The notes under the pieces: generated by a model | Databases searched by the model: none | What the model was told of the DNA's origin: nothing | What the model saw: only the letters and a program-made list of their open reading frames with translations | Made by a program: the position numbers and the translations under genes | In this document: piece by piece, positions 26,534 through 45,396 of the stretch | Layout of the letters: each line of letters begins with the position of its first letter | Numbering within the stretch: the stretch's first letter is position 1 | From: Burkholderiales bacterium | GTDB taxonomy: Bacteria; Pseudomonadota; Gammaproteobacteria; Burkholderiales; Burkholderiaceae_D | DNA length: 64,000 bases | Reading direction: 5' to 3' | Assembly: GCA_016200895.1 (NCBI GenBank) | Contig: JACQDX010000005.1 | Span: 1 to 64,000, forward strand

Positions 26534-27682
26534 ATGAATAAATCAAGATTACTGTCACTCGATGCTTTTCGCGGGTTCACCATTGCCAGCATGTTTCTGG
26601 TGAATAATCCGGGTGACTGGGCGCACCTGTACCCACCGCTTGAACATGCGGTCTGGTCAGGATGGACTTTTACTGACTGTATTTTCCCGTTCTTCCTGTT
26701 CATCGTTGGCGTCTCCTTACATTTATCGCTGCATCAAAAACTCATGGCTGGCTATGTCCAGGGACAGTTACTCAGGCAAACGGCCAAACGGGCTTTGTGG
26801 ATATTCCTGATCGGCCTGATGCTGAATCTCATTCCCAGCTTTGATTTTCAAACTGTGCGTATACCCGGTGTTTTGCAGCGTATCGCCCTGTGTACTTTAT
26901 TGGCAGCCCCCATATTGATTTATTGTGACTGGAAATGGCAGTTGATCTGGAGTGGCACCCTCATCGCCCTGTATTCCATACTCATGCTGTCCGTGTCTGT
27001 ACCAGATGCAGACGGAGTCTGGGTCAGGGCGGCGCTGGAACCCGGGCGCGACGCTGGTGCCTGGCTGGACAGGCTCTTGCTGGACGGGCATTTATGGAAA
27101 CGCGCAAAAATCTGGGACCCTGAGGGCGTGTTGAGCAGCCTGCCCGCTGTCTGTAGTGTGATTTTTGGAGCATGGGCAGGGCGCTGGCTCAGCAGCAGGC
27201 AGGATGCCGCCACAAAAACCGCCTGGTTCTTTGTCGCAGGCTTGAGTTGCCTGGCAATTGGCCTGGTGCTGGATACCTTGTTCATGCCCATCAATAAAAG
27301 CCTGTGGACACCTTCTTACAGCATCTTCATGACAGGCTGGGCGCTCATCAGCTTTGCCTGTTTTTACTGGCTGCTGGATGGTAATCCATCCACCATGCTC
27401 AAGAAATCCATGGCAAAACTCTCCCATCCTTTCGTCATGTATGGCATGAATGCACTGTTCCTGTTCACCCTGTCTGGCGTGATTGCCAAAATGCTGGGAT
27501 TTATCCATGTAAATCAGCTTGATGGCAGCAAACCCAGCCTGCATGCGATTATCTATGCACCGCTCCAGGCTTTACCCATCAATGCACTGAACGCTTCCCT
27601 GCTGTATGCAATGCTGTTTAATCTGTTGATGTTGCTGATTGCCTGGGCGATGTGGAAGAAACGCTGGTTTGTCAAAGTGTAA
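26534..27682 (+). CDS. NagX-like membrane protein (DUF5009/HGSNAT-type acyltransferase family)
   Basis: About 382 residues with around ten membrane helices. The start RLLSLDAFRGFTIASMFLVNNPGDW is the hallmark of the family that includes heparan-alpha-glucosaminide N-acetyltransferase. The His in PPLEHAVWSGWTFTDCIFPFFLF corresponds to the acetyl-carrying region of that family. In Shewanella and Xanthomonas such NagX proteins occur in N-acetylglucosamine utilisation loci, where an inner-membrane role in amino-sugar uptake or acetylation has been proposed. It opens the plus-strand group nagX, DigH-like, TonB receptor. The start lacks a good ribosome site and sits right behind a terminator. The frame is open to a GTG at 26414, through the hairpin. 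Confidence 0.85.
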   Translation: MNKSRLLSLDAFRGFTIASMFLVNNPGDWAHLYPPLEHAVWSGWTFTDCIFPFFLFIVGVSLHLSLHQKLMAGYVQGQLLRQTAKRALWIFLIGLMLNLIPSFDFQTVRIPGVLQRIALCTLLAAPILIYCDWKWQLIWSGTLIALYSILMLSVSVPDADGVWVRAALEPGRDAGAWLDRLLLDGHLWKRAKIWDPEGVLSSLPAVCSVIFGAWAGRWLSSRQDAATKTAWFFVAGLSCLAIGLVLDTLFMPINKSLWTPSYSIFMTGWALISFACFYWLLDGNPSTMLKKSMAKLSHPFVMYGMNALFLFTLSGVIAKMLGFIHVNQLDGSKPSLHAIIYAPLQALPINALNASLLYAMLFNLLMLLIAWAMWKKRWFVKV

Positions 27683-27738
27683 TGCAGTAGCATCTCAGGT
27701 CTTTCGCCCTTAATTGCTTTATTAGTTTTGGTTTATCC

Positions 27739-29382
27739 ATGTTTTCGCTTCCACCCTCGTCACGACCTGCTTTTACTTTGTCTACTTTAAAAACTTATCT
27801 TCAGCAGCTCAAGTTGCCTGCGCTGATGGCATCAGCGTGTGCACTCATGCTTGCCTGCACTACCGCAACACCGCCAGAAAAGCCCCTGCCAGTCAAACCG
27901 GCAATAACAAATCTGACCATCATCCCGCAAAATGCCTTGGTGAATTACCCGGTGCAAGTCAAAGATGCGCCGCCATTGCCGCGTGAATTTCGCGCTGCCT
28001 GGGTGTCAACTGTGGCCAATATAGACTGGCCTTCGCGCCGTGACTTGAGCACAGAAAAACAAAAGAACGAAGTCCTCACCATACTCGACAATGCAGTGCA
28101 GTTGAAACTCAATGCCATTGTCTTGCAGGTGCGCCCGGCCGCAGATGCCATCTACCCTTCCATGATAGAACCGTGGTCAGAATTTTTGACGGGCGAGCAA
28201 GGAAAGCCACCTTCCCCTTACTATGACCCACTGCAATTCTGGGTAGAACAGGCGCATGCACGTGGCCTGGAATTGCATGCCTGGTTCAACCCCTTTCGTT
28301 CCCGTACTGCGCAATCCAGGATGGCGCTGGCGACCAACCATATCAGCAAGCTGGCACCACAGGTCGTAAAAACTTATGGCGACCTGCAATGGATGGACCC
28401 GGGCGAGCCTCTGGCAATGCAGCAGACCCTGAATGTCATCAGCGACGTAGTGCGCCGTTACGATGTCGATGGCATCCATATTGATGATTATTTTTATCCT
28501 TACCCGGTCAAAGGCAGCAATGGTGCAGAGCAGGATTTCCCGGATGACCCGTCCTGGGTTGCCTATCTCCAGTCGGGCGGCAAACTGGCACGTGCGGACT
28601 GGCGCCGTGACAATGTCAACCGTCTGGTTGAAGCAGTCAACCAGCGCGTACACCTGGAAAAGCCTTGGGTGAAATTCGGCATCAGCCCTTTTGGTATAGG
28701 CAGGCCAGACCGCTTGCCACCCGGCATTGCTGGCTTCAGCCAATATGACAAGCTGTATGCAGATGTCGAACTCTGGCTGGCCAAAGGCTGGCTCGATTAT
28801 CTCGCTCCCCAGCTTTACTGGCCCATCAATCAGGGGCCACAGGCCTTCAAGGTCTTGCATGATTACTGGCTTACCCAAAACACTAGCGGCAAGCATATCT
28901 GGCCTGGCTTGTATACCAGCCGCATAGACAATACTGATAAATCCTGGTCTGCCGATGAAATTTTGAACCAGGTAGATGCCATGCGTGAAAAAGCGGGCAA
29001 TGGTCACGTACATTTCAGCATGGCAGCGCTGAACCAGAATCGCAAAGACATACGCAAACGCCTGGCGAGCGAGAAATACACCTCCCAGGCGCTGATCCCT
29101 GCCAGCCCCTGGCTAGACAATAGCCTGCCTGCCAGCCCGGTGTTGGAAGCCACCCCGGACAAGAAATCATTACGCCTGCAACTCAGCTATACCAGCAATA
29201 CCCGCCTGCTGGCCATCTGGAAGCGCACTGACCAGCAATGGCTGTTTTCTGTAGTACCTGCCCAGAACATGAGCATAGACATCAGCGATGATCCCCAGCT
29301 AGGTGTTATCAGGCAAGTGACTGTGTCAGCCATCAGCCGCACCGGTGTAGAGGGTTTGCGTGCAAGTTATAGCTTGCCCTGA
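27739..29382 (+). CDS. GHL10-family lipoprotein, DigH (YddW)-like glycan-strand hydrolase
   Basis: A 547-residue lipoprotein; the lipobox is LMLAC near residue 40. The GHL10 (DUF187) TIM barrel runs from about 90 to 440: REFRAAWVSTVANIDWPS, KLNAIVLQVRPAADAIYPS, HARGLELHAWFNPFR and VDGIHIDDYFYPYP, where the acidic residues are likely catalytic. E. coli YddW, now DigH, cuts peptidoglycan glycan strands lacking stem peptides. The C-terminal 110 residues look like a small beta-sandwich. It would release saccharides at the outer membrane or in the periplasm, matching the AmiD-like amidase, MurQ and the sugar kinase of this locus. It follows nagX by 56 bp and ends in front of a strong terminator. 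Confidence 0.87.
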   Translation: MFSLPPSSRPAFTLSTLKTYLQQLKLPALMASACALMLACTTATPPEKPLPVKPAITNLTIIPQNALVNYPVQVKDAPPLPREFRAAWVSTVANIDWPSRRDLSTEKQKNEVLTILDNAVQLKLNAIVLQVRPAADAIYPSMIEPWSEFLTGEQGKPPSPYYDPLQFWVEQAHARGLELHAWFNPFRSRTAQSRMALATNHISKLAPQVVKTYGDLQWMDPGEPLAMQQTLNVISDVVRRYDVDGIHIDDYFYPYPVKGSNGAEQDFPDDPSWVAYLQSGGKLARADWRRDNVNRLVEAVNQRVHLEKPWVKFGISPFGIGRPDRLPPGIAGFSQYDKLYADVELWLAKGWLDYLAPQLYWPINQGPQAFKVLHDYWLTQNTSGKHIWPGLYTSRIDNTDKSWSADEILNQVDAMREKAGNGHVHFSMAALNQNRKDIRKRLASEKYTSQALIPASPWLDNSLPASPVLEATPDKKSLRLQLSYTSNTRLLAIWKRTDQQWLFSVVPAQNMSIDISDDPQLGVIRQVTVSAISRTGVEGLRASYSLP

Positions 29383-29436
29383 AGCAAGCCCTAAAACAAG
29401 GCTGGCATAGATCAAGTAAGCAAGTGTGGTTTTTAG

Positions 29437-29471
29437 ATACGTATGGGCTGGCTGATCCATACGTATTTTTC
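29437..29471 (+). terminator. Intrinsic terminator behind the GHL10 gene
   Basis: ATACGTATGG at 29437-29446 pairs perfectly with CCATACGTAT at 29457-29466 over a ten-base loop, and TTTTTC follows. It lies in the 323-bp gap between the GHL10 gene and the TonB receptor gene. The rest of the gap shows no gene. Confidence 0.8.
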
Positions 29472-29705
29472 TTTGCTGTTTTCCCGGTTTCCTCTCTGAA
29501 ATCAGCGTCTTCACTGGCTGGTACACCAGTCCAGGCAAACCCCATATCTTTTGGTTATCGCCCGTCATGATATTTTCATTTGTCACCCTTAATAGCAAAA
29601 CCCTAGTCTGGCATATACAAAAAATTTATATCAATTGCGGCTAAGGCCGATAGTTGAAAGTAAAACCGCTCACACATCAACGTCGTACGACCCAAGGAGA
29701 GACCA

Positions 29706-32546
29706 GTGAAGTTAAAGACCATAGCCAGGTGCATCGCCCTGATAGGCATTTCTACCGGTACCAGCGGGTGGGTACAGGCACAGGAACTGCCTGCTCCGCC
29801 ACCGCAAAGAGTAGAAATTACCGGTAGTAGCATCAAACGTATTGCCTCCGAAGGTGCTTTGCCGATAGAAGTCATTACCCGCAAGCAACTGGAAGCTGCG
29901 GGCATCGTCACCGCCGAACAATTCATCGCCAACCTGAATATTAATGGCAATGGCTCTGACAACCTGGCCAGTAATGCTGACGTCACCTCCGGTGCCCAGC
30001 GCGGCAATAATGGCGCATCTTCCGCCAACCTGCGTGGTCAGGGTGCTGATAGCACACTGGTGTTATTGAATGGCCGCCGTGTTGCCACCCATGGCATGAA
30101 GGGTTCGGCAGTTGACTTGAATTCCATCCCCATGGCGGCGGTGGAGAGAATTGAAGTCCTGAAAGACGGCGCTTCTGCCATCTACGGTACCGATGCGATT
30201 GGTGGTGTCATCAACTTCATCCTGCGCAAGAATTACAATGGACTGGAAGCACAGGCCTTCACTGATATTTCCCAGCAAGGTGGCGGCAATATCAAGCGTG
30301 TGTCCGTGGTTGGTGGCTTTGGTGATCTGGAAAATGACCACTACAACGTTCTGCTCACAGCGACGCATAGCGAGAACGATGCACTGCGGGGTGACCAGCG
30401 TGATTTCGTGAATACCTTCCAGCCCAACCGTGGTTTGTCGGTAGATACCCGTGGCACACCGAATGCAACGGTATTTGCAACCTCACTGGCGAATACCATA
30501 CTCAGCAACAAGAGCAATAATGGCCCTGTCTTCCCTGGTACTACTCAGGTCATGAATGCCATCAACGTATTGAATTTACCGGGTGGCGCGGGCTGTAGCG
30601 CTGTCGATGGCATGGCGGCTTATGATGCCAAGCTATGGGATGTGGCTTCCTCCAAATATGCCTGTGCATGGGATACTGGCCGTGCTGCAGTGCTGCAACA
30701 ACCAGTCAAGAACGATAACTTTGTCGCACGTGCCACGTTCAAGATAGGCACACATCAATTGTTTGCCGAAGCAGTTGGCTCCCAGGTTGAAGTGTCCAAA
30801 CGCTTTTCACCCAACCAGGTTTCCCCTGGCACCAACTTCCCTGCGTCTTCATTTTATCCAAGCACAGGTTCTGCCTATAATGATGTATTCAATGCTATCG
30901 TCGCAGTATTTCCCAGCATAGAAGCCAATCGCGGCGCACCTATCGCCTACCGCTGGCGCTGTATGGAATGCGGTAATCGTGAAATCTCTACCCGCACAGA
31001 AGCTGGCCGCCTGCAATTGGGTGCTGATGGCCAGATAGGCAAATGGGATTACCGCGTCGGCCTGTCGCGTGCCTATAGTGAATCTGAATCCAAACTGGGT
31101 GCTGGCTACAACTACACCGTTGCACTGGCAAATGCTCTGGGTACCGGCATCATCAATCCTTTCCTGAAACCTGGTGAAAAGCAATCACAAGCTGCGCTTG
31201 ACCTGATCAACAGCACCTCCGCAGCTGGCGTCACATTATATGGTGGCAAAACCACGCTGACGCAGGCAGATGCTGCCCTGTCCGGCGAAATCTGGCAATT
31301 GCCTGCTGGTGCCGTCATGGCTGCCGTGGGTACGGACTTGCGCAAGGAAGAATACACTTTCAACGGCGATGCAAGAGCATCCAGCGTGCGCCCTGCCATC
31401 TTGAATGCGCCATTTGATGACAGCAATGCCTTGCCTAAAGTCAGCCGAGATATACGTGCTGTGTATGCAGAGGTTTTGGTACCTGTGCTCAAGTCACTGG
31501 AAGTCACCGTTGCTGGTCGTCAGGATCATTACTCAGGCTTTGGCAGTACTTTTAATCCAAAAGTAAGTTTCCGTTATACACCGACAGATACGCTGTTGTT
31601 CCGTGGTTCGTACAACACGGGTTTCCGTGCACCTTCATTCAACCAGTTGTTTAACGGCATTACCGATTCACCTTATGCCGGTAAAGACCTGGCCGATCCT
31701 GCCACCTGCCCGACTTTAAAGGTTGATAGCAGCAAGCCTGGTTGTGCCGCCATTACACCAAATATTCTGACAGGCGGTAAAACCACACTGGGCCCTGAAA
31801 AAGCCAAGCAAGGCACCGTAGGCGTGGTCTGGGCACCAAGCAGCAACTTCAGCGCAAATGCTGATATCTGGGAAATCCGCAAGGAAAATTCCATCACTTC
31901 CATAGACCTGACTACCATGCTGCAAAACTATGATCTTTTCAGGGATCAGTTTTTGCGCGACAGCACAGGTGCGTTGATCTTTGTTGACCAGCGTTGGGTC
32001 AATGCCGGTTCGAGTATTACTCGTGGTGTGGAAGTTGGTGCAAAAGCGAATGGTGAAATCCTGAATGGCAAATGGGCTGCTGGTCTGGATGGCTCATACC
32101 TGCTGGAGAAAAAATCCCGCCCTATGGCGAATGCACCGTATGGCGCGAGCGAAGTCGGCCGCTTTACCTTTACTGGCGACCTCGGCCTGAGATGGAAGCA
32201 CACTGCTTTTGTCAACTACACCCAGGGCGACTGGACGGGCACCTTCACGCAAATTTACCGTGCTGGCTACAAGGATCAGGTCTTGCCTGGCGTACAGAGT
32301 GGCCTGGTCATGCCATCCAACTACAATCCTAACGTCAAAGCCTATATCATCTACAACATGAGCGTGACGTATAGCGGCATCAAGAACCTGACGCTGACTG
32401 CCGGTTTGAAAAACCTCTTCAATACCGACCCACCATTTGCCATCACTTATGACAGCAATACTGGTGCAGGCAGCTCCTGGGAACCACGCGTAGCAGATCC
32501 ACGCGGCCGTTCATTTACTTTGCTGGCGAATTACAAGTTCAAGTAG
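29706..32546 (+). CDS. TonB-dependent outer-membrane receptor (oligosaccharide-type)
   Basis: A 946-residue receptor with a signal peptide, a TonB-box-like start (RVEITGSSIKRI), a plug domain (about 40-190) with DSTLVLLNGRR, VERIEVLKDGASAIYGTDAIGGVINFILRK, and a 22-strand barrel ending GRSFTLLANYKFK with a C-terminal aromatic-rich strand. This style matches the large receptors that import sugars or peptides in Proteobacteria rather than siderophore receptors. Placed between the GHL10 enzyme and murQ, it is the best candidate to bring peptidoglycan fragments across the outer membrane. Start is a GTG at 29706, preceded by the strong site AAGGAGAG. A bidirectional terminator follows. Confidence 0.92.
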   Translation: MKLKTIARCIALIGISTGTSGWVQAQELPAPPPQRVEITGSSIKRIASEGALPIEVITRKQLEAAGIVTAEQFIANLNINGNGSDNLASNADVTSGAQRGNNGASSANLRGQGADSTLVLLNGRRVATHGMKGSAVDLNSIPMAAVERIEVLKDGASAIYGTDAIGGVINFILRKNYNGLEAQAFTDISQQGGGNIKRVSVVGGFGDLENDHYNVLLTATHSENDALRGDQRDFVNTFQPNRGLSVDTRGTPNATVFATSLANTILSNKSNNGPVFPGTTQVMNAINVLNLPGGAGCSAVDGMAAYDAKLWDVASSKYACAWDTGRAAVLQQPVKNDNFVARATFKIGTHQLFAEAVGSQVEVSKRFSPNQVSPGTNFPASSFYPSTGSAYNDVFNAIVAVFPSIEANRGAPIAYRWRCMECGNREISTRTEAGRLQLGADGQIGKWDYRVGLSRAYSESESKLGAGYNYTVALANALGTGIINPFLKPGEKQSQAALDLINSTSAAGVTLYGGKTTLTQADAALSGEIWQLPAGAVMAAVGTDLRKEEYTFNGDARASSVRPAILNAPFDDSNALPKVSRDIRAVYAEVLVPVLKSLEVTVAGRQDHYSGFGSTFNPKVSFRYTPTDTLLFRGSYNTGFRAPSFNQLFNGITDSPYAGKDLADPATCPTLKVDSSKPGCAAITPNILTGGKTTLGPEKAKQGTVGVVWAPSSNFSANADIWEIRKENSITSIDLTTMLQNYDLFRDQFLRDSTGALIFVDQRWVNAGSSITRGVEVGAKANGEILNGKWAAGLDGSYLLEKKSRPMANAPYGASEVGRFTFTGDLGLRWKHTAFVNYTQGDWTGTFTQIYRAGYKDQVLPGVQSGLVMPSNYNPNVKAYIIYNMSVTYSGIKNLTLTAGLKNLFNTDPPFAITYDSNTGAGSSWEPRVADPRGRSFTLLANYKFK

Positions 32547-32572
32547 AACGAACAAGTAACAAGCTAAAACAA

Positions 32573-32610
32573 AAATCCCTTGGCATCAATCAATGCCAAG
32601 GGATTTTTTT
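32573..32610. terminator. Bidirectional terminator between the TonB receptor and the serpin gene
   Basis: AAATCCCTTGGCAT at 32573-32586 pairs perfectly with ATGCCAAGGGATTT at 32593-32606; a run of seven T follows on the plus strand and a shorter run occurs on the minus strand. It ends both convergent genes. Confidence 0.88.
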
Positions 32611-32633
32611 ATCCGCTAAAAATCCTCAGTCGT

Positions 32634-33953
32634 TTAACTTGCAGGACTCATGAGCTTACCCATGAAGATGATGAGGCCAGTTTGCCTGTCCCTGATCATG
32701 AACAGGAAAGGGCGATCCAGCGTCAGCTTCAGCGGTTGAGTCACATTGACACTGGTGGCACTGATCAATACACCAGTTGCGGCGGCTGCCTCGGTTCCCT
32801 TTTCATCGACGTTGATGAAGGCTTTGTGCACGACGCCAGAAATCGATAACTCGCGGTTACCGCTTATCCCGGAAAAATCAGCCTTGGCTGCATCAAAGGC
32901 CATGCCCATGCCCAGCGTACTCAAACTGGAATTCATCGCAGGGCTGGCACTGAAGTTAAACTTGGGCATGCTCAAGGCAATGTAATTGTCTTTCAAGCCT
33001 GTCGTGATGTCGCTGATAGTAGTGCTGCTCAGGCCCTGGATAAAACTGTCAAACTTGCCGGTGTCAGGCACGACGACCAGCATGGCCAGTTTGTTATCGA
33101 TGTAAGGCAGTTCCACCGCCTGATAGCTCTTGCCCTGCACATAAGGGAAATTGCTGGTCAGATTCATGAAGGGTAGATTTTTCACACCGCCTTTACGGTC
33201 AGTGAAATCCTGGTTTCTCGTCGCTTCCTTGGTAAATGGCTGCGCCCAGTCTGACTTGAACCAGATGGCATTTGTCAGTACCACACGTGTCATTGGTGAA
33301 ACACCACCGGCAGGTATCAGGTCCTTGATTTTTTGCTGGGTCTGGTCCGCCACCCAGTTATTAATTGTCAGGCGTGAAGGTTCAGCAGCGCTGACAAAAT
33401 CCTGCAAGTTAACAGCAGCGCCAAAATTCACACTGAGGGCATCCAGATAACTGCTTTGCAAGCTGTAACCTTGCTGTGCCCACAAGGCATTGGCGATATT
33501 CAGATTGGGTAATTGGGCGTTCGGTTTGGCTGCTGTCGAGGTTTTATCTGCCAGCAATAAATCAAGGCGATTCAGGGCCGGTTGCAAACGGCTTTGCTGT
33601 AACTGGAAAGCCAGTGCCTTTTCCATACCACTGAGGGTATCGCCCTTGGCACCAGCTGCTGCCATTTCCAGCGCCAGTGTCAGGCTATACGGTGAATACA
33701 CCAGATTGCTGTCGCCTTGCGTATCCAGCAATGGCAAAATTTTCAAGGCAAATTCGGTATTTCCGGCGACTGCCGCTGCCAGATCGGCATCGCTGGCTTG
33801 TGGGGTAACATTGCGTGCCAGCGAGGATTTGACTGTACTGACAGCCTGGGGCTTACTTGTATCTGAATTGGTGGCTGTAGCTGCAGTGCCGGCACCGCCG
33901 CAGGCAGAAACCAGAGCAAGTAGCAAGCTTGAGCATATGAGTGTAGGACGCAT
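32634..33953 (-). CDS. Serpin-family protease inhibitor, lipoprotein
   Basis: A 439-residue serpin, a class rare in bacteria. A lipoprotein signal (LLLALVSAC) is followed by a Thr/Ser/Ala linker (to about 50) and the serpin fold. The hinge of the reactive loop is EKGTEAAAATG, which has the small-residue pattern of inhibitory serpins. The loop continues with VLISATSVNV, so the P1 residue should be Thr, Ser or Ala. The C-terminal signature is DRPFLFMIRDRQTGLIIFMGK. It probably protects the envelope from serine proteases of elastase-like specificity, perhaps released by preyed-on, host or grazing cells. It lies between the TonB receptor and the L,D-transpeptidase genes but on its own transcript. 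The biological target is unknown. Confidence 0.92.
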   Translation of the reverse strand: MRPTLICSSLLLALVSACGGAGTAATATNSDTSKPQAVSTVKSSLARNVTPQASDADLAAAVAGNTEFALKILPLLDTQGDSNLVYSPYSLTLALEMAAAGAKGDTLSGMEKALAFQLQQSRLQPALNRLDLLLADKTSTAAKPNAQLPNLNIANALWAQQGYSLQSSYLDALSVNFGAAVNLQDFVSAAEPSRLTINNWVADQTQQKIKDLIPAGGVSPMTRVVLTNAIWFKSDWAQPFTKEATRNQDFTDRKGGVKNLPFMNLTSNFPYVQGKSYQAVELPYIDNKLAMLVVVPDTGKFDSFIQGLSSTTISDITTGLKDNYIALSMPKFNFSASPAMNSSLSTLGMGMAFDAAKADFSGISGNRELSISGVVHKAFINVDEKGTEAAAATGVLISATSVNVTQPLKLTLDRPFLFMIRDRQTGLIIFMGKLMSPAS

Positions 33954-34098: not shown

Positions 34099-34659
34099 CT
34101 ATATATCCACGGGCTTTTCAACTACGTCGACCACTGCTCCTACTCCCACGCGCTCAAACAATTCAGCAATATCCACAGAGCGCATACGTATGCAACCATA
34201 GCTGGCAGGCGTGCCCAGCAGGCTTTCCTGCGGCGTACCGTGGATATAGATAAAGCGCGGGTAGGCATTGCGGTTGCGCTGCTCCGTACCTCGCAACCAC
34301 AGTATGCGTGTCACCACAGGATCACGCCCTGGCGCATCCGCTGCCACAATTTCACCGGTAGGCTTGCGGTCCTTAAATACTGAACCCAGCGGTACACCAG
34401 CACCGACTTTCTCGGCGATCTGCATGCGGCCACCCGGCGTCATATAACTGTCAGGCATATCACCTATGCCACGTTTGGCCGTGGAAATCGCGTAAGTCGC
34501 CACTGGCTTGCCGTCTTCCAGTAAAACCATTTTTTGCTCAGGGACTGAAATGATCAATTGATGACGGGTATCGCCGCCTTGCAGCCAACCCCATTGGCAA
34601 GCGGATAGCAGCAAGCTGGCGGCCAGTATCAATACCAGGTGACGGCGAAGAATTTGCAT
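34099..34659 (-). CDS. L,D-transpeptidase (YkuD-domain) lipoprotein
   Basis: A 186-residue protein with a lipobox (LLLSAC) and a YkuD domain: HQLIISVPEQKMVLLEDGKPVATYAIST begins it, and the catalytic block is YIHGTPQESLLGTPASYGCIRM, with the nucleophilic Cys, the first His (HGT) and the Arg of the CIRM motif. YkuD enzymes form or reverse 3-3 crosslinks in peptidoglycan or attach lipoproteins to it. It is small, with a catalytic domain only and no LysM or PG_binding domain. Its place between the serpin and murQ suggests a role in processing cell-wall fragments, although a general cell-wall function is equally plausible. murQ is divergent, with 165 bp between. Confidence 0.9.
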   Translation of the reverse strand: MQILRRHLVLILAASLLLSACQWGWLQGGDTRHQLIISVPEQKMVLLEDGKPVATYAISTAKRGIGDMPDSYMTPGGRMQIAEKVGAGVPLGSVFKDRKPTGEIVAADAPGRDPVVTRILWLRGTEQRNRNAYPRFIYIHGTPQESLLGTPASYGCIRMRSVDIAELFERVGVGAVVDVVEKPVDI

Positions 34660-34824
34660 TGTTTATCTGTGCTTTAACGGTAAGTCAGCATAAGCTGATC
34701 AACAGGTATCTGCAAATAATTCCTGCTGCCGCATGCATTACCTGAAGTTATGGACCGGGTATCAGCTTTCATTTGTGCTCTGCCTGCCGAGGGCATAAGG
34801 TAATGAGAGAAAAGGAATCAAGCC

Positions 34825-38058: not shown

Positions 38059-38060
38059 CC

Positions 38061-38675
38061 TTAATCAATACGCAAATAGGTTTCACGCACGACCACCGGG
38101 TCGCCACAATTGAAATGCCACCATTCGCTATTGATGCCACGGAACCCACCGTGTGCCATTGCAGCCCGCAATATGCCACGCTGGTCTAGCTGGTGCTGGG
38201 TGAGCTGGCCTTCGGCCAGCATTCTTTGTTCCAGCGCTGGGTGGGATTTTTCTTCGAGGGCATCAAAGCCGCTGCCCATGTCCAGCTCCTTGCCGTCGGC
38301 ATCAATGAGGGTGACATCCACCGCCATGCCAAAGGAGTGGATGGAACCACGGGCCGGGTCGGCCACGTACATACGCAAAGGTGTGCCATCCAGGTGCTGC
38401 CATAGCATTTCCTGTACACGGTGCGGGCGCAGAGCATCCAGCACCAGTATGCGCAAGTCAGGGTGATGTTCGTGCAGCCAGTTGACTGCAGCCTGCAGGG
38501 CAGCCACAGCTTCGTGGTGCAACCAACTACAGTCAAGATCACCGTATAACTCACGACCAACAAAATTGTCGGCACCGACATAACGTAAATCGATAACTAT
38601 GCCGCTGACGGTGTCGAGCCGGCAAAAATCAGGATGATCCGCAATCAATTCACAACGCACACATTCTCCACACAA
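38061..38675 (-). CDS. D-alanyl-D-alanine dipeptidase (VanX/DdpX-like, M15)
   Basis: A 204-residue zinc peptidase of the M15D group. The metal site is SIHSFGMAVDVTL (H and D ligands) and the catalytic/binding EWWHF motif appears near the end (NSEWWHFNCGDP). No signal peptide is seen, as in E. coli DdpX and VanX, which work in the cytosol. It cuts D-Ala-D-Ala, released from pentapeptide stems, to feed D-Ala or reduce it to a nutrient. It is followed at 2 bp by the serine hydrolase gene. The start has no ATG: TTG at 38675 is the longest choice, GTG at 38660 an alternative. Resistance to vancomycin is not implied, because vanA and vanH are absent. Confidence 0.9.
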   Translation of the reverse strand: MCGECVRCELIADHPDFCRLDTVSGIVIDLRYVGADNFVGRELYGDLDCSWLHHEAVAALQAAVNWLHEHHPDLRILVLDALRPHRVQEMLWQHLDGTPLRMYVADPARGSIHSFGMAVDVTLIDADGKELDMGSGFDALEEKSHPALEQRMLAEGQLTQHQLDQRGILRAAMAHGGFRGINSEWWHFNCGDPVVVRETYLRID

Positions 38676-38797
38676 CAGAGTTTTTCATAATCGCAGCATA
38701 GGGTGAGTCATCTGCACCTGCCAATGAAAACTTACCGATGACATATAACCAGATGGAATGATCAGGCTCTGAACTTCCATCTGGCGATCAATACAAT

Positions 38798-40594
38798 TTA
38801 TTTTAATACTTTATTACGGGCAATAACATCGACATCCACGTAGCGCCAGTTTGTGAAATCCACCGGATGTCTATAGTAGTTTTGCAACCAGGATTGGGAT
38901 AGATCTGCCGTCACAGGATGTATGCGCGGCACCCAGGGGGTATAGCCATGCATGAGTTGCGCCATCTGGCGGTAAATTGCCGTTCTCTCGGGGCTATCGC
39001 TCAGGCGCATCGCGTCTTCATACAGCTTGTTAAAGGCTGGAAGGTTAAAGCGCGAATAGTTGGCGCGACCAGCATTGGGGCCGTACAAAAGCTGGTAAAA
39101 ATTTTCGGCATCGGGGAAGTCAGCTATCCAGTTGGCCTCAGTCATCTGTACCTTGCCCAGGCGGGCAGCACGCAAAATTTCTGAATGTTTATCGGTCTTG
39201 AAGCTGACGTGGATGCCAATAGCTTCCAGGTTCTTGCGCCAGACTTCATCATGCAAGCGGCCAGTAGTACTCGCAAGACTATGCATTTGCAAATGCAGGA
39301 GCTGACCATCAGGTAAGTTACGATAACCATCAGTGCCGCGCCTATAGCCAAATTTGTCGAGCAAGGCATTGGCCAGCTTTACATCATATTGCACAGGGGT
39401 TTTATAGCTTGGGTCATAACCCAGCACATTCGGCGGCAAAGGCGATTGCGCCTGTATTGCCAGGCCTTTTTCCATCAGGGCGATGTCTTCCTTGCTGTCG
39501 TAGCTAAGGGCAATGGCACGGCGTAAGGCGATCTTCTCCAGGGTATAACCGCCAACTACCGGGTCTTCCATATTCATCCACATGTAATAGGTTTGCAGTG
39601 GCGTGAACAGGGACAGGCGCACGCCCTGCTGCTGCAATGCAGGCTTGAGCTTGCCATCATCCAGCACCATATTCGACAGCGGTGCCGGCACTTGTTCCAG
39701 ATAGTCAAATTCATGGTTCAGGAAACCCAGTACGCGCGACTGCTGTTCTTCCATGATCTTGATTTCTACCTTGCTGACACGTGGCAAAGTCTGCCCTGCC
39801 AGGCTGGCAGCGATTTTTCTGGTGGCGTCATCGCTACCCTGGTCATTGAACACGACTTTGCGGTACTGCGGATTCGCCAGTAACTCTATGCGAAAGCTGC
39901 GCTGCCACTGGCCAAGTATGAAAGGACCAGTCCCTATAGGGTGATTACCGACCTGGTTGCCATAAGCCTCCACCACTTCCCTGGCCACTGCACCTGTAGC
40001 GGTAGTTGCGAGGATGAACAGGAAATTACTATCAGGCGCGTTCAGGCGTATGCGCAGCGTGTATTTATCCACGGCTTGCAAACCGGGTATGCTGGTTTGC
40101 AGATTGAAGTCCTGGCTTTTGCCATCTTTGGCTGGCCTGAGTTTTTCATCACCCAGTAACTTGCCTTCAAACATGAACAGCCAGGGTGATTTGACCGTAG
40201 GATCATAGATGCGCTTGATGCTGTAGATATAATCTTCTGCCGTCAATTCCCTGGGCTTGCCCTTGAATGCTGGGTCAGGTGTAAACATGATGCCTGGTTG
40301 CAGATGCAGGACATAGGTTTTGCCCTGGTCCAAGATTTCTGGCATGCTTTTCAGGGTGTTGGGCTTGAGCTTCACAGGCCGCGCCAGATAGTCATAGCGC
40401 AGCATGGGTTCAAAAATATTTTCATTGATGCTGACCGAAGGTACGTCAGATGCCACTGCCGGGTCCAGACTGCTCTCCGGCGTCGTCACCAGTACCCGCA
40501 AGACTTTTTCAGTACTGGCTGCCGCATGTGCGGGCAAAACCTTGATCACGGCCGAAACACCCAACAATGCGACAAATAAAAAACGCAAACTCAT
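38798..40594 (-). CDS. Peptide ABC transporter substrate-binding protein (SBP_bac_5)
   Basis: A 598-residue periplasmic binding protein of the OppA/DppA/MppA type with a signal peptide (FVALLGVSAVIKVLPAHAAA). The conserved solute-binding pattern runs from ESSLDPAVASDVPSVSINENIFEPML to the C-terminal PHSEIL/SRFNLPAFNKLYEDAM region. In E. coli the related MppA delivers murein tripeptide to the Opp channel. Permease and ATPase genes are not in the window, so the partner must be encoded elsewhere. Its ATG overlaps the stop of the M14-type hydrolase gene by 4 bp (ATGA-type coupling) and it lies in the operon with the AmpG-like permease, which supports a stem-peptide role. Confidence 0.88.
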   Translation of the reverse strand: MSLRFLFVALLGVSAVIKVLPAHAAASTEKVLRVLVTTPESSLDPAVASDVPSVSINENIFEPMLRYDYLARPVKLKPNTLKSMPEILDQGKTYVLHLQPGIMFTPDPAFKGKPRELTAEDYIYSIKRIYDPTVKSPWLFMFEGKLLGDEKLRPAKDGKSQDFNLQTSIPGLQAVDKYTLRIRLNAPDSNFLFILATTATGAVAREVVEAYGNQVGNHPIGTGPFILGQWQRSFRIELLANPQYRKVVFNDQGSDDATRKIAASLAGQTLPRVSKVEIKIMEEQQSRVLGFLNHEFDYLEQVPAPLSNMVLDDGKLKPALQQQGVRLSLFTPLQTYYMWMNMEDPVVGGYTLEKIALRRAIALSYDSKEDIALMEKGLAIQAQSPLPPNVLGYDPSYKTPVQYDVKLANALLDKFGYRRGTDGYRNLPDGQLLHLQMHSLASTTGRLHDEVWRKNLEAIGIHVSFKTDKHSEILRAARLGKVQMTEANWIADFPDAENFYQLLYGPNAGRANYSRFNLPAFNKLYEDAMRLSDSPERTAIYRQMAQLMHGYTPWVPRIHPVTADLSQSWLQNYYRHPVDFTNWRYVDVDVIARNKVLK

Positions 40595-41592
40595 GCTTTG
40601 GCCTTTCCAAATTCGGCCAAACGAGGGTTAGGTTTTGTTAAGTAAAACCACTCTTCACCAGCGCTGGCACCTGCATCCGGGAAAATGATGCGGCCATCCT
40701 GATCTGCCCTGACTTCAGTACCATCGGCACGTGTGCCTATCAGTTCCCCCAGCGTCACTTCATCAAAGCTGCGCCATTCACGCACGAAACTGTCACCGTC
40801 ATGCAATTTGTCGATAACATCATAAATGCGCAAGGCTTCCATCTCTGTTACAGGCGCGGGTGCTTCGCCAGCAATCACACCCAGATGACGCAGGCTGTTG
40901 ACGATGGCAGCATAGGCCACCGATGGTGCTTGCGGGTCAAGATGCTGGCCACATTCCAGCGTCATGGCATAACCGCCGACCGAGCGCATGTATTCTGTCG
41001 TACCTACACCAAACTGTGTATTTGCATTTGCTACGGTTTTGGCATCGGCATCGTGAGCAAGCCGTTCCTGACGGCGTTGGACGCCACGCGCATAAGTGCC
41101 AAGCCAGCCATCAACCAGCCGGTGCACACCCAGGCGCATGGCCATGGCTAGTTCCTGCTGTTCATGGCTGAATGATTCTATGGGGCCGCGATTATTTTCT
41201 GGCCCTATCAGGACAAAAGGCTCGCCCTCACTACGGAAAGAATGCAGATCGAGCAAGACATCGTGCTGAGCCATGAGAGGACATAACCAGTTTGCCACAT
41301 GATCTTCAAATTCCTGCACATCAGTTGTCGGTATCAGGCGGCGATTCAGGTTGCGTTCACCTTCCCTTTGCCCCAGTTTATAGGCCAGCGGATTGCATAC
41401 CGGCACCAGCGTCAGACGGCCACTCAGCAATTGCAGGCTGCCCTCTTCGAGTTCAGCAATGACGCGGCGTATCGCTTGGGTGCCGCAGGTTTCATTGCCA
41501 TGTACGGCACCAGTGATAATGACACTGCTGCCTGGCTGTGGAGAACTGTAGCTGGTACTTTGAAAATGATAGGGGTAAGCAGTTTTGTTCAT
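40591..41592 (-). CDS. AstE/AspA/MpaA-like zinc carboxypeptidase or amidase
   Basis: A 333-residue enzyme of the M14 superfamily succinylglutamate desuccinylase/aspartoacylase branch. Zinc ligands are H31 and E34 (AVHGNE) and H117 (LLDLHSF); the glutamate of the catalytic step is expected further on in MTLECGQHLDP. The nearby HGNET and NPLAYKLGQREGERNLNRRL block is typical. MpaA, a relative, removes L-Ala from murein tripeptides; this protein may do something similar, but the family also holds arginine-catabolism enzymes, so the substrate is inferred from position. It is cytosolic, with no signal peptide, and lies 14 bp after the AmpG-like gene and 4 bp over the binding-protein gene. Confidence 0.82.
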   Translation of the reverse strand: MNKTAYPYHFQSTSYSSPQPGSSVIITGAVHGNETCGTQAIRRVIAELEEGSLQLLSGRLTLVPVCNPLAYKLGQREGERNLNRRLIPTTDVQEFEDHVANWLCPLMAQHDVLLDLHSFRSEGEPFVLIGPENNRGPIESFSHEQQELAMAMRLGVHRLVDGWLGTYARGVQRRQERLAHDADAKTVANANTQFGVGTTEYMRSVGGYAMTLECGQHLDPQAPSVAYAAIVNSLRHLGVIAGEAPAPVTEMEALRIYDVIDKLHDGDSFVREWRSFDEVTLGELIGTRADGTEVRADQDGRIIFPDAGASAGEEWFYLTKPNPRLAEFGKAKA

Positions 41593-41606
41593 ATTTTATT
41601 CAGCCT

Positions 41607-42908
41607 CTATTCAGCTTTTTTGCCAAAAGCCGGGTCCACTTTAATGAGAGCGGTGACAACAAAGGTAGGCACGGCAGCAATACATATCCAGACAAAGAAA
41701 TGGGCATAACCCAGATGCTCCTGCAAACGGCCACTGAACATCCCCGGCAACATCATGCTCAGCGCCATGAAGCCTGTACAAATCGCATAATGCGCGGTCT
41801 TGTGTTCGCCATCAGCAATCATGATCATATACAGCACATAGGCTGTAAAGCCAAAGCCATAACCCATTTGCTCTACGGCCACAGCAGCACCAATCAGATA
41901 GATATTTTGTGGCTGCACAAAGGCCAGGTACACATACACCAGATGCGGCAGATTAATGGCCAGCGCCATCGGCCAAAGCATGCGCTTCAAGCCAAAACGC
42001 GAGATCAGGGCACCACCTGCCAGGCCACCTATGGTCAGGGCAATCATGCCCATGGTGCCATATACAATACCAACCGCCTGCGTGGACAGGCCCAGACCGC
42101 CCTTATCTACACCATCGAGCAAAAATGGCGGCGCCATCTTCACTAATTGCGCTTCGCCAAAACGATACAGCAAGAGGAAAGCAATCGTCAGCAAGATATT
42201 TTTCTTTTTGATGAACTTGCCAAAAATCGTGAAGAATGTCGCTACTACCTGATTTGGGTCACCATGCGCACGATCACTGGCCGGGCGTGGCAAGGCCCAT
42301 TTATGATAGGCCGACAAGCTGATGAACATCACAGCTAGCACACAAAAAACGACGATCCAGCCAAACCTGGCATCGCCCGTCATGTCGCGCAGTGTGCCTG
42401 CCAGATAAACCAGAGCCCCCTGTCCAGTCAGCATGGACATCCTGAAAAACATGCTGCGCACACCAACGAAAGCGGCCTGTTGATACTGTTCCAGCGCCAG
42501 CATATAAAAGCCGTCAGAACTGATGTCATGCGTCGCAGCACTGAAAGCAAGTAACCAGAAAACCAGCAGGGTCGCCTGGAAAAAAGCTGGCATGGGTATG
42601 GTCAGGGCCACCAACCCGAACATGGCACCAATCACCAGTTCCAGCGTAACAATCCAGAAACGCTTGGTTTTGAACATGTCCACAAAAGGTGACCAGAAAG
42701 GCTTGATCACAAAGGGCAGATATAACCAACTTGTATATAAGGCAATATCAGAATTGGAAATATCGAGATTTTTGTACATAATGACGGAAAGTGTCATTAC
42801 CACGACGTATGGAATCCCCTGGCTGAAATACAATGACGGTATCCAGCGCCAGACCCCGCCAGCAGGAACTTCAGGATTTTTGACCGCAGTAACTGTCTCG
42901 CTTGTCAT
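41607..42908 (-). CDS. MFS permease, AmpG-like (muropeptide importer)
   Basis: A 433-residue major facilitator with about 12 membrane helices. The N-terminus RWIPSLYFSQGIPYVVVMTLSVIMYKNL and the segment AALLAFSAATHDISSDGFYMLALE resemble AmpG, which imports GlcNAc-anhMurNAc muropeptides in Enterobacteria; the match is to the broad AmpG/PAT group, not to E. coli AmpG itself. It heads the minus-strand operon MFS, M14-type, SBP, VanX, serine hydrolase, and is divergent to the sugar kinase, amidase, carboxypeptidase group. The 228-bp intergenic region should carry promoters for both; the -35/-10 pair TTGCTG-18-TTATAA at 42975-43004 faces right. Confidence 0.85.
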   Translation of the reverse strand: MTSETVTAVKNPEVPAGGVWRWIPSLYFSQGIPYVVVMTLSVIMYKNLDISNSDIALYTSWLYLPFVIKPFWSPFVDMFKTKRFWIVTLELVIGAMFGLVALTIPMPAFFQATLLVFWLLAFSAATHDISSDGFYMLALEQYQQAAFVGVRSMFFRMSMLTGQGALVYLAGTLRDMTGDARFGWIVVFCVLAVMFISLSAYHKWALPRPASDRAHGDPNQVVATFFTIFGKFIKKKNILLTIAFLLLYRFGEAQLVKMAPPFLLDGVDKGGLGLSTQAVGIVYGTMGMIALTIGGLAGGALISRFGLKRMLWPMALAINLPHLVYVYLAFVQPQNIYLIGAAVAVEQMGYGFGFTAYVLYMIMIADGEHKTAHYAICTGFMALSMMLPGMFSGRLQEHLGYAHFFVWICIAAVPTFVVTALIKVDPAFGKKAE

Positions 42909-43136
42909 CTTGATCTTTTTCTTAAGTGGTAGGGCTCATCTTCCCAGTAAAATACCGGGATTGCGATTGAAATTTTGCTGCTGCTTCATAGCAAAAAGTT
43001 ATAAGCCGGATGCATCTTTTCATTCGCTGCCAGTGCCAGAAGCGCCCTATGATAAACGAACAACTGCCAGTTATTGCGATTCAGCTCCACGATGTTTCAT
43101 CAAATTCCCCAAAAATCAGCACACCAAGCTACATTT

Positions 43137-44081
43137 ATGTCATCAGACCAGCAAACGCCCTTGTCACAGCAAACGACCTACATTGCGCTGGGTATAGATG
43201 CGGGCGGCACGCAAACCCGCTGGGCATTGGCGACTAAAGATGAACAAATCCTTGCCAGTGGTACCGCCGCCGGTCTTACCGCTCTACAAACCGATAATGC
43301 AGAAGGTGTACAAGCAGTGCACCAGGTATTTGCTGGCCTGGCCGCCGCCACGCGCAGCCATGGCCAGGTAAGCAGCATACGCGCAGGCATTACCGGTTTT
43401 GGTGGCGATGCCCATACCCTGCCAGATATGCTGGCCGACTGCTTTGATCTGGAAAAACAGCACATCCTTGTCAGCAATGACATAGAAATAGCCTACCTCG
43501 ATATTTTCAAACCGGGCACGGGTTACCTGATTTATGCTGGCACCGGTTCCATCGCTGCCTACATAGATGCAAATGGTGAGTTTCATCGCGCCGGTGGCCG
43601 TGGTTATTTGCTGGATGATGCTGGTGGCGGCTTCTGGATAGCGCGCGAAGCCATGCGCAAGCTCTGGCGCGCCGAAGATGAACATCCCGATCACTGGAAA
43701 AATTCAGAAATGGCGAAACGCCTGTTCAAGCTCATCGGTGGCAATGACTGGAACATATCACGTGATTTTATTTATCACCGCAGTCGTGGCGACATCGGCA
43801 AGCTGGCTATGGCCGTTGCTGCCGCAGCCGACAGCGACCCGGTCGCCATGGTCATATTACAAAGCGCGGGCAAGGAACTGGCACGCCTGGGCATGGCCAT
43901 GTGCACCCGTTTTGGTAATAAACCCATTGCACTCAGTGGCAGGGTGCAGGAATTGCATCCTGCCATCGTAGAATCCCTGCGCCTGCATCTGCCACCAGAA
44001 ATCAGCCTGCGCCAGAGCACTTGCGAAGCGCATTTTTCCGCAGCGCGACTCGCTGCCCGACAACTCAAAAAACAATCATGA
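43137..44081 (+). CDS. BadF/BadG-family sugar kinase, MurK-like
   Basis: About 314 residues with the ASKHA actin-like fold. The phosphate-1 motif is GIDAGGTQTRWAL, followed by GTGSIAAYIDANG and GRGYLLDDAGGGFWIAREAM, the same layout as N-acetylglucosamine kinase and Clostridium MurK, which phosphorylates both MurNAc and GlcNAc. With MurQ in the same locus this closes the path MurNAc to MurNAc-6P to GlcNAc-6P. Clear AnmK motifs and PTS genes are not seen. ATG at 43137 begins MSSDQQTP; upstream starts at 43092 or 43074 are possible. It overlaps the amidase gene by 4 bp at ATGA. Confidence 0.88.
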   Translation: MSSDQQTPLSQQTTYIALGIDAGGTQTRWALATKDEQILASGTAAGLTALQTDNAEGVQAVHQVFAGLAAATRSHGQVSSIRAGITGFGGDAHTLPDMLADCFDLEKQHILVSNDIEIAYLDIFKPGTGYLIYAGTGSIAAYIDANGEFHRAGGRGYLLDDAGGGFWIAREAMRKLWRAEDEHPDHWKNSEMAKRLFKLIGGNDWNISRDFIYHRSRGDIGKLAMAVAAAADSDPVAMVILQSAGKELARLGMAMCTRFGNKPIALSGRVQELHPAIVESLRLHLPPEISLRQSTCEAHFSAARLAARQLKKQS

Positions 44082-44887
44082 ATAAAATCAGTCTATATAG
44101 CATATTTGCTGCTGTCAGTATCTTCATCAGCGGCTGTGCCACGGTTGGCCCCATGGGCAAACTCGATGCCAGTATTTCTGCCAAAAGCCAGGAAGAACGT
44201 GTGCAATTCATCATCCTGCATTACACCGCCCTGGATCAGCCCACTTCATTGCGGGTACTCAGCCAGCAGGCAGTCAGCGCCAATTACCTGGTCGGTGATG
44301 AAGACCCCATCAAGGTCTGGCAACTGGTGCCAGAAAATCACATGGCTTATCACGCTGGCCTCAGCGAATGGAAAGGCTATAGCCGCCTGAACGCCAGTTC
44401 CATAGGCATAGAAATCGTCAATCTCGGTTTCAAGGATACGCCGGAAGGCCGCATTTATTTCCCCTTCCCGCAAGCCCAGATAGACCGCGTAATTGCCCTG
44501 GTCAAGGATATCTCACTGCGTTACCAGATACGCCCTGAATACATACTCGGCCATTCCGACATCGCCCCTTTACGCAAATCCGATCCCGGCCCACTCTTCC
44601 CATGGAAGCAACTGGCCGATGCCGGCCTGATCCCCTGGCCCAAGGCAGATGAAGTCGCGCAACGCATGACAGCCTATGAATTGCAATTACCAGAGATCAA
44701 ATGGTTCCAGCAAAAACTCGCACAATATGGTTACGGTATTCCGCAAACCGGCCTGCTTGATGAAGCTACCCGCAGCGTGCTGGTGGCATTCCAGACCAAG
44801 TACAGGCCAGCAAAATTTGACGGCATGCCAGACGCAGAAACCGCCGCCATGCTTGATACCCTGATCGCCAACCTGAAAGCAAAATAA
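44078..44887 (+). CDS. AmiD-like N-acetylmuramoyl-L-alanine amidase, lipoprotein
   Basis: A 269-residue lipoprotein (lipobox ISGC at about residue 17-20) with an Amidase_2 domain (about 45-190) and a C-terminal PG_binding_1 domain (about 200-268). The zinc site includes H48 (IILHYTALD) and the His of ILGHSDIAPLRKSDPG. E. coli AmiD cleaves the bond between MurNAc and L-Ala and works on both intact and anhydro muropeptides in the outer membrane. This is the first reaction of stem peptide removal and yields the free sugar used by the kinase just upstream, whose stop it overlaps by 4 bp. The frame is open to 44021, but the signal peptide starts at 44078. Confidence 0.94.
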   Translation: MNKISLYSIFAAVSIFISGCATVGPMGKLDASISAKSQEERVQFIILHYTALDQPTSLRVLSQQAVSANYLVGDEDPIKVWQLVPENHMAYHAGLSEWKGYSRLNASSIGIEIVNLGFKDTPEGRIYFPFPQAQIDRVIALVKDISLRYQIRPEYILGHSDIAPLRKSDPGPLFPWKQLADAGLIPWPKADEVAQRMTAYELQLPEIKWFQQKLAQYGYGIPQTGLLDEATRSVLVAFQTKYRPAKFDGMPDAETAAMLDTLIANLKAK

Positions 44888-44889
44888 AC

Positions 44890-45396
44890 ATGGCAGTTAG
44901 TCACGCTGCAAACTTCACCATCCCGCCGCAACTGCTGGAACAGCGTGGCCTGCTACTGCAGCAAGAAGCCACAGACTTGGTACTGGCAGAAACCGGCGAA
45001 GATGGCAGGCTATACCTGCTGACACCTGCCACCAAACTAGCCTGGCAAGCGATGAAGGAAGCTGCCAGCCAGGACGGCATAGCACTACTGATGATTTCGG
45101 CCTTCCGCAGCATCGCCAGGCAAACCGAGATCATCAGCGACAAGCTGGCTGAGGGTCAGCAACTGGAAGACATATTACTGGTCTGCGCCCCACCGGGTTA
45201 CAGCGAACATCACACCGGCCGCGCCATCGACATTGCCACGCCAGAAGACCCGGAGCTGGAAATTTCTTTCGACACCACGACGGCATTTGTGTGGTTACAA
45301 AACAATGCCAGGCGCTTTGGTTTTCAGATGTCTTACCCGCCGGGGAATAGCAGCGGATTTCAGTATGAACCGTGGCATTGGTGTTTCCAATCTTAA
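44890..45396 (+). CDS. D-alanyl-D-alanine carboxypeptidase (VanY-type, M15B)
   Basis: A 168-residue zinc peptidase. The metal and catalytic motifs are SAFRSIARQTE, SEHHTGRAIDIAT (His 107/108 and Asp 114) and EPWHWC near residue 163. Family members trim the terminal D-Ala from pentapeptide stems. No signal peptide is visible, so it probably works in the cytosol on imported peptides. It follows the amidase gene by 2 bp, closing the kinase, amidase, carboxypeptidase operon, and its stop codon overlaps that of the convergent ABC-2 permease gene by 4 bp. E. coli lacks a chromosomal VanY of this kind in such a neighbourhood. Confidence 0.92.
   Translation: MAVSHAANFTIPPQLLEQRGLLLQQEATDLVLAETGEDGRLYLLTPATKLAWQAMKEAASQDGIALLMISAFRSIARQTEIISDKLAEGQQLEDILLVCAPPGYSEHHTGRAIDIATPEDPELEISFDTTTAFVWLQNNARRFGFQMSYPPGNSSGFQYEPWHWCFQS

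Follow-up and report, generated by a model that had tools for sequence, protein, structure and literature searches.

Can a single cluster of genes carry peptidoglycan fragments from the outer membrane into central metabolism and, if so, does it serve recycling of the cell's own wall, feeding on the walls of others, or both? The question is raised by a locus at positions 26534-45396 of a 64,000-nucleotide stretch of DNA, the window, which corresponds to bases 1-64000 of contig C140 (GC 0.51) of a 5.9-Mb genome. The closest named relatives of the kinase encoded in this locus belong to Undibacterium umbellatum and Undibacterium pigrum (89% each) and, judged by sequence, the source genome is Undibacterium-like. 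We conclude that this is very probably a LysR-controlled locus for the uptake and catabolism of peptidoglycan fragments. Gene content, conservation, a common upstream site, its co-occurrence with the regulator and the distribution of AmpG types can all be read directly from the DNA. Gene families were called by scanning the proteins of the window against Pfam and NCBIfam, which recovered within 26534-45396 every family that an earlier note on this DNA had listed, each where it had been placed; the list otherwise held, but a serpin at 32634-33953 had been overlooked.

A neighbourhood conserved in several gene orders

A profile search of genome contigs, seeded with the alignment of the kinase, singled out 477 candidate stretches, in which 366 relatives were found. 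The top 80 were kept, of which most belong to Undibacterium, Massilia, Duganella, Pseudoduganella, Rugamonas, and Telluria, and gene content was counted in the 71 of at least 15 kb, the 9 shorter ones being dropped. As the earlier note had anticipated when it called for such a search, the families of the locus recur together across Oxalobacteraceae. Besides the kinase itself (71 of 71), these loci carry the N-acetylmuramoyl-L-alanine amidase (71), an AmpG-family permease (69), the N-acetylmuramic acid 6-phosphate (MurNAc-6P) etherase MurQ (65), the M15 dipeptidase-like protein (61), the GHL10 glycan-cleaving enzyme (59), and the peptide-binding protein SBP5 (55), followed by the LysR-type regulator (43), the hydrolase BlaC (40), the NagX-like protein (25), the M14-like enzyme (16), the VanY-type carboxypeptidase (9), the YkuD protein (7), and the serpin (3). 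A TonB-dependent receptor is present in 19, frequently past the end of the locus. Gene order in the other genera is rearranged relative to the window; the linkage is thus not the mere inheritance of one order, and the grouping exceeds chance. Together with the shared upstream site described below, this conserved neighbourhood supports the notion of a single pathway, in the sense of one functional unit.

Within the genus of the source genome (hereafter the genus), MurQ is found in 13 of 36 genomes, and MurQ, LysR, and BlaC occur together in all 12 MurQ-bearing genomes other than the source. Among the 11 genus loci with sufficient flank, the M15, M14-like, kinase, and amidase genes are in place in every one, and the VanY, SBP5, and AmpG genes in 9 each. 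The SBP5/AmpG slot is occupied in G010 and G022 by a gene of the ornithine cyclodeaminase/mu-crystallin family, which matches an archaeal alanine dehydrogenase model below its cut-off; this family includes alanine dehydrogenases. The G010 locus (L041) additionally encodes a full Opp-type importer, made of a binding protein, two permeases, and two ATPases, and that of G022 (L043) a different TonB receptor with a C39 peptidase, so that the theme of the locus is kept despite these swaps. Relatives of the locus-type AmpG lie about 20 kb off in G010 and on a separate contig in G022. Another stretch of G022 (L221, contig C43) holds relatives of GHL10, NagX-like, YkuD, and AmpG genes and, at 8644 (- strand), a perfect match to the 27-bp site described below. 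In G027 (L046-L047), murQ and lysR are each split across two frames.

A probable regulator and a shared 27-bp site

Aligning the intergenic regions of the genus loci brought out an element common to the upstream regions of the receptor gene, murQ, and the kinase operon, GTTAT-N16-TTCATT. In the window, this 27-bp site stands on the + strand upstream of the receptor gene (29554-29580), upstream of murQ (34747-34773), and in the divergent region between ampG and the kinase gene, directed at the latter (42998-43024), and on the - strand upstream of the M15 and BlaC genes (38723-38749). These four copies compare with 0.03 expected, and none of 100 shuffles had four; with one mismatch allowed, the same four were returned, against 1.05 expected, and 2 shuffles had at least four. 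Since the pattern was derived from the copies at 29554, 34747, and 42998, the M15 copy and those of Massilia-type loci, which were found with it, make the fairer test. The spacing is identical in 48 instances from the window and 12 genus loci; two extra matches to a looser pattern, one of 23 bp (G028) and an overlapping one of 20 bp (G004), were discarded for their spacing.

Presence of the site closely follows that of the LysR-type regulator (35807-36709, + strand; PF00126 and PF03466). The 71 loci comprise 42 with both, 28 with neither, 1 with LysR only (L195), and none with the site only. The corresponding figures for the 56 loci outside the genus, from which the pattern was not derived and from which L142 (genus genome G021) is left out, are 32, 23, 1, and 0. 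The LysR class is well separated, the matches counted scoring 369-667 bits and another LysR-family gene, in L162, 21 bits. Among the 9 loci shorter than 15 kb, 4 have the site, with a LysR match in view in 1 of these 4, and L154 has LysR without the site. The 80-locus set overlaps the set of genus genomes (L118 and G019, for example), so that their site counts are not independent, and all genomes are related, so that p-values overstate independence.

The 80 loci contain 107 instances of the site, which precede genes for D-amino-acid dehydrogenase (DadA, 30), BlaC (27), the TonB-dependent receptor (13), MurQ (10), M15 (10), and the BadF-type kinase (9); of the remaining 8, 2 precede the cyclodeaminase-family gene (L136 and L145, assigned by matching coordinates) and 6 lie at most 400 bp from the end of the locus. 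The DadA target is found in Massilia-type loci. With 423 bits, one DadA (L194:1291-2532) exceeds the cut-off of 383 set by NCBIfam for D-amino acid dehydrogenase, and the others were labelled by phmmer similarity to it. Within the site, AT at -10/-9, which is not part of the search pattern, is kept in 48/48 genus and 75/76 other instances and gives, with the A of GTTAT, a T-N11-A form, typical of LysR regulator sites. We infer that the LysR protein binds the 27-bp site, and the distribution of targets suggests that one LysR regulon unites the receptor with the catabolism of MurNAc and D-Ala. At M15, the site and the beginning of a promoter-like sequence, TTGGCA-N18-TATGCT, overlap; across the locus, promoter-like and terminator-like scans were near shuffle level (16 versus 17.7 and 25 versus 20.2, respectively), the promoter scan being overall no better than shuffles.

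Several observations weigh against a LysR-controlled uptake and catabolism locus as proposed here. As to the site, conservation of its fuller dyad, CATAAC-N5-GTTATG, is incomplete (outer C in 35/48 and 54/76 instances, outer G in 16/48 and 62/76); the LysR match of L195 comes without an exact site, and so does that of L116, a locus from another family with MurQ and a 455-bit LysR match, which counts against a universal rule. Moreover, this LysR and the site are both absent from 22 of the 65 MurQ-bearing loci; these 22 come largely from Duganella and Rugamonas. The kinase is retained without MurQ in 7 genus genomes, and the six of these that were examined (L215-L220) have no exact site, including G003 (L216), which has a LysR match; much of the gene set can therefore exist outside the regulon. 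No site precedes the different receptor of G022, and the solved structures that the window's receptor matches, mainly in the plug, are receptors for iron, B12, haem, and colicin, which gives no information on its substrate. Finally, a canonical AmpG exists besides the locus in one genus genome (G026) and in 5 of 18 hand-picked Massilia-type genomes.

The kinase and a probable route to GlcNAc-6P

MurQ (34825-35712, + strand) scores 358 bits against NF003915 (cut-off 168); it also passes NF009222 (311 versus 255) and falls slightly under the cut-off of TIGR00274 (292.6 versus 302). Contig C52 (L207) encodes NagA (270 bits, cut-off 226) and a NagB-II-like deaminase (276 bits, under the cut-off of 430), which would complete the use of N-acetylglucosamine 6-phosphate (GlcNAc-6P). 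The same contig carries a GntR regulator, a NagZ-like hexosaminidase (207.7 versus 207), and a NagK-like gene truncated by the contig end; no exact site was found in its stretches L206 and L207, the part of this GlcNAc cluster that was fetched. The catabolic route to GlcNAc-6P put forward earlier is thus supported by MurQ together with the NagA and NagB-II-like genes.

The sugar kinase of the BadF/BcrAD type (43074-44081, + strand; PF01869, E 3.5e-16; aligned portion from 43137) would act on MurNAc and/or GlcNAc. That it is instead a GlcNAc kinase, with AnmK acting on anhydro-MurNAc to supply MurQ with MurNAc-6P, is the alternative that survives best, a serious possibility if the less probable one. 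Its top NCBIfam model is indeed NagK_SO3507 (73 bits, cut-off 370), AnmK is present, and Cwp19, a relative of the GHL10 enzyme of the locus, makes anhydro ends according to the excerpts of its descriptions. Its retention in the seven MurQ-less genomes suggests that the kinase may also act on GlcNAc, which it may serve in those genomes. Against a GlcNAc kinase stand the separate NagK-like gene end on C52 and the second rank, among solved structures, of the MurNAc/GlcNAc kinase 8zo3 (E 1.6e-18), after the hexokinase 2e2n. Initially called MurK-like, the protein does belong to the BadF kinase family, but the MurK label is perhaps too narrow in view of the same seven genomes. An AlphaFold model built with 8 sequences was not used (mean pLDDT 66.8, below 50 at residues 112-152).

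Recycling, feeding, or both

The AmpG-family permease of the major facilitator superfamily (MFS) encoded by the locus (41607-42908, - strand) scores 180 bits against TIGR00901, whose cut-off is 350; it is the highest of three in the genome, and this score indicates a divergent member of the family, not a canonical AmpG. AnmK was found in all 37 sampled genomes, 23 of them in the genus (23/23), MurU above cut-off in 36 of 37 (22/23 in the genus, the match in G017 being short), and the LdcA-type S66 family in 35 of the 36 genomes of the genus but in only 6 of 24 from other families. In the genus, these genes are near-universal with or without the locus, which indicates that anabolic recycling can do without it, while a nutritional, catabolic role is suggested by MurQ and by the DadA of the Massilia-type regulon.

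The distribution of AmpG types adds a second aspect. Among the 20 kinase-bearing genus genomes, a canonical AmpG (above 350 bits) occurs only in G026 and another type, of about 265 bits, only in G010 (264 bits), whereas the 16 kinase-less ones include 10 with a canonical AmpG, 4 with the 265-bit type, and 2 with neither (73 and 83% complete). Either type is thus present in 2/20 versus 14/16 genomes (Fisher 3.8e-6, uncorrected for relatedness). An AmpG-family match of 160-166 bits, close to the 166-191 bits of the locus type, is additionally present in two kinase-less genomes (G024 and G029). In other families of the order, a canonical AmpG is present in 23 of 24 sampled genomes, and outside the genus its displacement is partial. 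Since locus-bearing genomes of the genus mostly lack the other types, self-recycling probably runs through the locus AmpG too.

Could the locus then serve self-recycling only, as the ordinary AmpG recycling of the family, with receptor and hydrolases recapturing the cell's own lost turnover products? The lack of both other AmpG types in 18 of 20 kinase-bearing genus genomes would fit, as would the apparently periplasmic or cytosolic location, by inspection, of the majority of the enzymes. This explanation is nonetheless unlikely, as nearly all tested genus genomes have the genes of anabolic recycling, whatever the state of the locus, and MurQ and DadA, which would burn MurNAc and D-Ala, belong to the regulon. 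The choice between self-recycling and feeding, initially left open, is therefore probably to be answered by both: MurQ and DadA point to nutrition, and the AmpG pattern to recycling as well.

The TonB-dependent receptor

The receptor gene (29706-32546, + strand; PF00593 and PF07715) could be a mere neighbour, its product serving another substrate such as chitin oligosaccharides, peptides, or iron. The substrate cannot be read from the sequence, and G022 has a receptor of a different type that lacks the site. However, the site precedes the receptor gene, as it does murQ, in 11 of the 13 loci from the window and the genus, the exceptions being G022 and G018 (a 5-kb contig without a receptor); apart from G022, both the linkage to peptidoglycan catabolic genes and the shared upstream site are conserved. 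The site is also found before the receptor gene in Massilia-type loci with a different gene order, where a TonB receptor comes next in 10 of the 16 loci with at least 1.2 kb visible 3' of SBP5, and the GlcNAc cluster on C52 has no exact site in the portion that was fetched. A receptor for another substrate is accordingly still less likely than self-recycling alone, and the site common to the receptor, murQ, the kinase operon, and M15 supports the earlier placement of the receptor with the catabolic set. Least probable of all is that the site is the promoter of a special sigma factor and not a LysR site, which its directionality, constant 16-nt spacing, and imperfect dyad would allow but which its almost perfect association with the locus LysR and the well-kept AT pair of the T-N11-A form make very unlikely.

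Other genes of the locus and its surroundings

On the + strand, an optional part of the locus encodes a NagX/HGSNAT-like membrane protein (26534-27682; PF07786, E 7.1e-14), for which a longer frame starts with GTG at 26414 and which, with 148 bits, does not reach the NagX cut-off of 480. On C52, a NagX-like gene occurs as two adjacent frames (L206:7874-8989), next to another AmpG-family gene. The GHL10 enzyme follows (27739-29382, + strand; PF02638, E 1.3e-60), a probable lipoprotein by inspection of its N-terminus, which, of the solved structures, matches only Cwp19 in sequence (5oq2, E 3e-71). DigH, too, is a GHL10 enzyme.

The serpin (32634-33953, - strand; PF00079, E 3.1e-102), another probable lipoprotein, is present in 4 of the 11 genus loci with flank and restricted to the nearest relatives; it was therefore rejected as a core part. 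Its hinge region seems to resemble the consensus of inhibitory serpins. The YkuD-domain protein (34099-34659, - strand; PF03734, E 1e-19), an L,D-carboxypeptidase or transpeptidase, is also a probable lipoprotein, with an N-terminal leader containing LSAC seen by eye. Its top NCBIfam model is the L,D-carboxypeptidase ElsL (120 bits, under the cut-off of 270), but an identification as ElsL is not supported, given this score and the leader, whereas ElsL, a cytoplasmic enzyme, is reported to be leaderless (PMC8649774). A replacement of LdcA by ElsL was likewise rejected because of the presence of the LdcA family in nearly all genus genomes.

The beta-lactamase-fold (S12-type) hydrolase BlaC (36706-38058, - strand; PF00144, E 2e-39) is probably secreted, by inspection. 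A fusion to a GH3 domain, suspected in L184 from length, was dismissed, the scan giving MFS then beta-lactamase domains in one frame. Upstream of BlaC lie the genes for the M15 D-Ala-D-Ala dipeptidase-like protein (38061-38675, - strand; PF01427, E 9.8e-28; no signal peptide seen), which scores 145 bits against the DdpX model (under the cut-off of 176), and for the periplasmic peptide-binding protein SBP5 (SBP_bac_5; 38798-40594, - strand; PF00496, E 1.6e-63), of the Opp/Dpp/MppA family, which no permease adjoins in the window. Between M15 and SBP5, an S13 carboxypeptidase and a Gate-domain membrane protein are encoded in a Massilia-type (L194:13389-16124) and a Rugamonas-type locus (L162:16042-18776).

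The M14-like zinc amidase or carboxypeptidase of the AstE/AspA fold (40591-41592, - strand; PF24827, E 7e-16), in which no signal peptide was seen, has HGNE and DLHS motifs that are invariant in the alignment of its homologues and that we take to form the metal site. It was rejected as a marker of the locus: among 38 stretches around its homologues, from 37 genomes outside the genus (728 kb), 29 have no other locus family and 8 have at least one (L088, L089, L093, L094, L106, L109, L114, and L116), L106 having VanY only; L084 has a single weak BlaC match. No exact site was found in these 38 stretches.

Downstream of the kinase, the N-acetylmuramoyl-L-alanine amidase (44021-44887, + strand; Amidase_2 and PG_binding_1) is in a frame that overlaps the kinase gene, its real start probably being near 44081, and is a probable lipoprotein. 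Its description as an AmiD-like amidase stood as to the amidase but not as to AmiD, AmpDh2 being nearer (4bpa, E 5e-96, versus 2bh7, AmiD, E 6.4e-55). The VanY/LdcB-type carboxypeptidase (44890-45396, + strand; PF02557, E 3.4e-38) closes the locus. Directly 3' of it, 45393-49147 encodes an ABC-2 permease, an ATPase, an HlyD adaptor, and a TetR regulator, a set conserved at high identity in only 4 of 11 genus loci. Elsewhere in the window (15966-24537), a two-partner secretion (TPS) pair, namely a TPS-domain exoprotein of 2038 amino acids and a ShlB/FhaC-type transporter, is adjoined by a FecR-domain protein, and a Tli4_C domain (immunity to secreted lipase) adjoins one Massilia-type locus (L194:176-910).

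Relation to known systems

MupP-AmgK-MurU recycling in Pseudomonas is anabolic and without MurQ; MurU and AnmK are found in the locus-bearing lineage too. In E. coli, recycling genes are scattered, MurNAc enters via the phosphotransferase system (PTS), there is no TonB receptor, and the regulator is another one. The E. coli AmpG-AnmK-MurQ route nonetheless resembles the locus in that, as summarised in the excerpt of PMC13046382, MurQ takes the MurNAc branch to GlcNAc-6P. Caulobacter crescentus likewise has, according to that excerpt, a TonB receptor clustered with amino-sugar genes and AmpG-based recycling in the same cell; however, the receptor is reported as GlcNAc-specific, its clusters are described with PTS, NagA, and NagB genes and not with AmpG, and the recycling route given is AmpG-AmiR-NagZ-MurU, with no MurQ (PMC13046382).

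The nearest described system among the matches listed is the ampG-murT-murK-murQ operon of Tannerella forsythia (Tanf_08345-08385), in which an AmpG-type permease, a PF01869 MurNAc kinase, and MurQ, all three shared with the locus, form one unit scavenging external wall material (PMC5388701, PMC7670621, PMC5790795). Unlike the locus, the genes listed there for this operon include no TonB receptor, LysR, or binding protein; MurT is present, the hybrid two-component protein GppX is the regulator, and the carrier is a MurNAc auxotroph. Cwp19, a GHL10 enzyme like that of the locus, is reported as a lytic transglycosylase, and the excerpts on Cwp19/DigH describe autolysis and cell separation, not feeding (PMC6016235, PMC12288456). 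Among the matches listed from the open-licence PMC literature, there is no TonB receptor carrying peptidoglycan fragments alongside a MurNAc catabolic set. TonB receptors for sugars and siderophores are already known.

Proposed working and significance

For the scheme that follows, we infer the substrates, the direction of regulation, the compartments, and the activities from sequence features. The TonB receptor would import cell-wall fragments through the outer membrane. Once in the periplasm, these would have their glycan strands cleaved by the GHL10 enzyme and their stem peptides removed by the AmpDh2-like amidase, with trimming of the peptides by the S12 and YkuD enzymes. AmpG would move sugars or sugar-peptides inward, and SBP5 would pass free peptides to an Opp/Dpp-type permease encoded elsewhere. 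In the cytoplasm, the M14-like, M15, and VanY enzymes would dismantle the peptides, while the kinase would phosphorylate MurNAc, and probably GlcNAc, and MurQ convert MurNAc-6P into GlcNAc-6P and D-lactate, the former being channelled by NagA and NagB-II into central metabolism. The LysR protein would activate the receptor, murQ, kinase, and M15 transcripts through one type of site, and the cell's own wall turnover would probably enter via the locus AmpG too.

More broadly and more tentatively, with chances that we put close to even, this may be a feeding regulon of Oxalobacteraceae in which one LysR protein governs a muropeptide TonB receptor together with MurNAc and D-alanine genes, and in which AmpG took over the cell's own recycling. 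If so, it would supply a named regulator and a 27-bp site for this process, housekeeping wall recycling would have passed to a nutritional permease, and feeding on the walls of others and own recycling would share a single regulated gate. Many members of one family from soil and fresh water share the locus, a conserved and apparently co-regulated set for peptidoglycan utilisation, which would, if this is true, explain how these bacteria could use the walls of dead neighbours.

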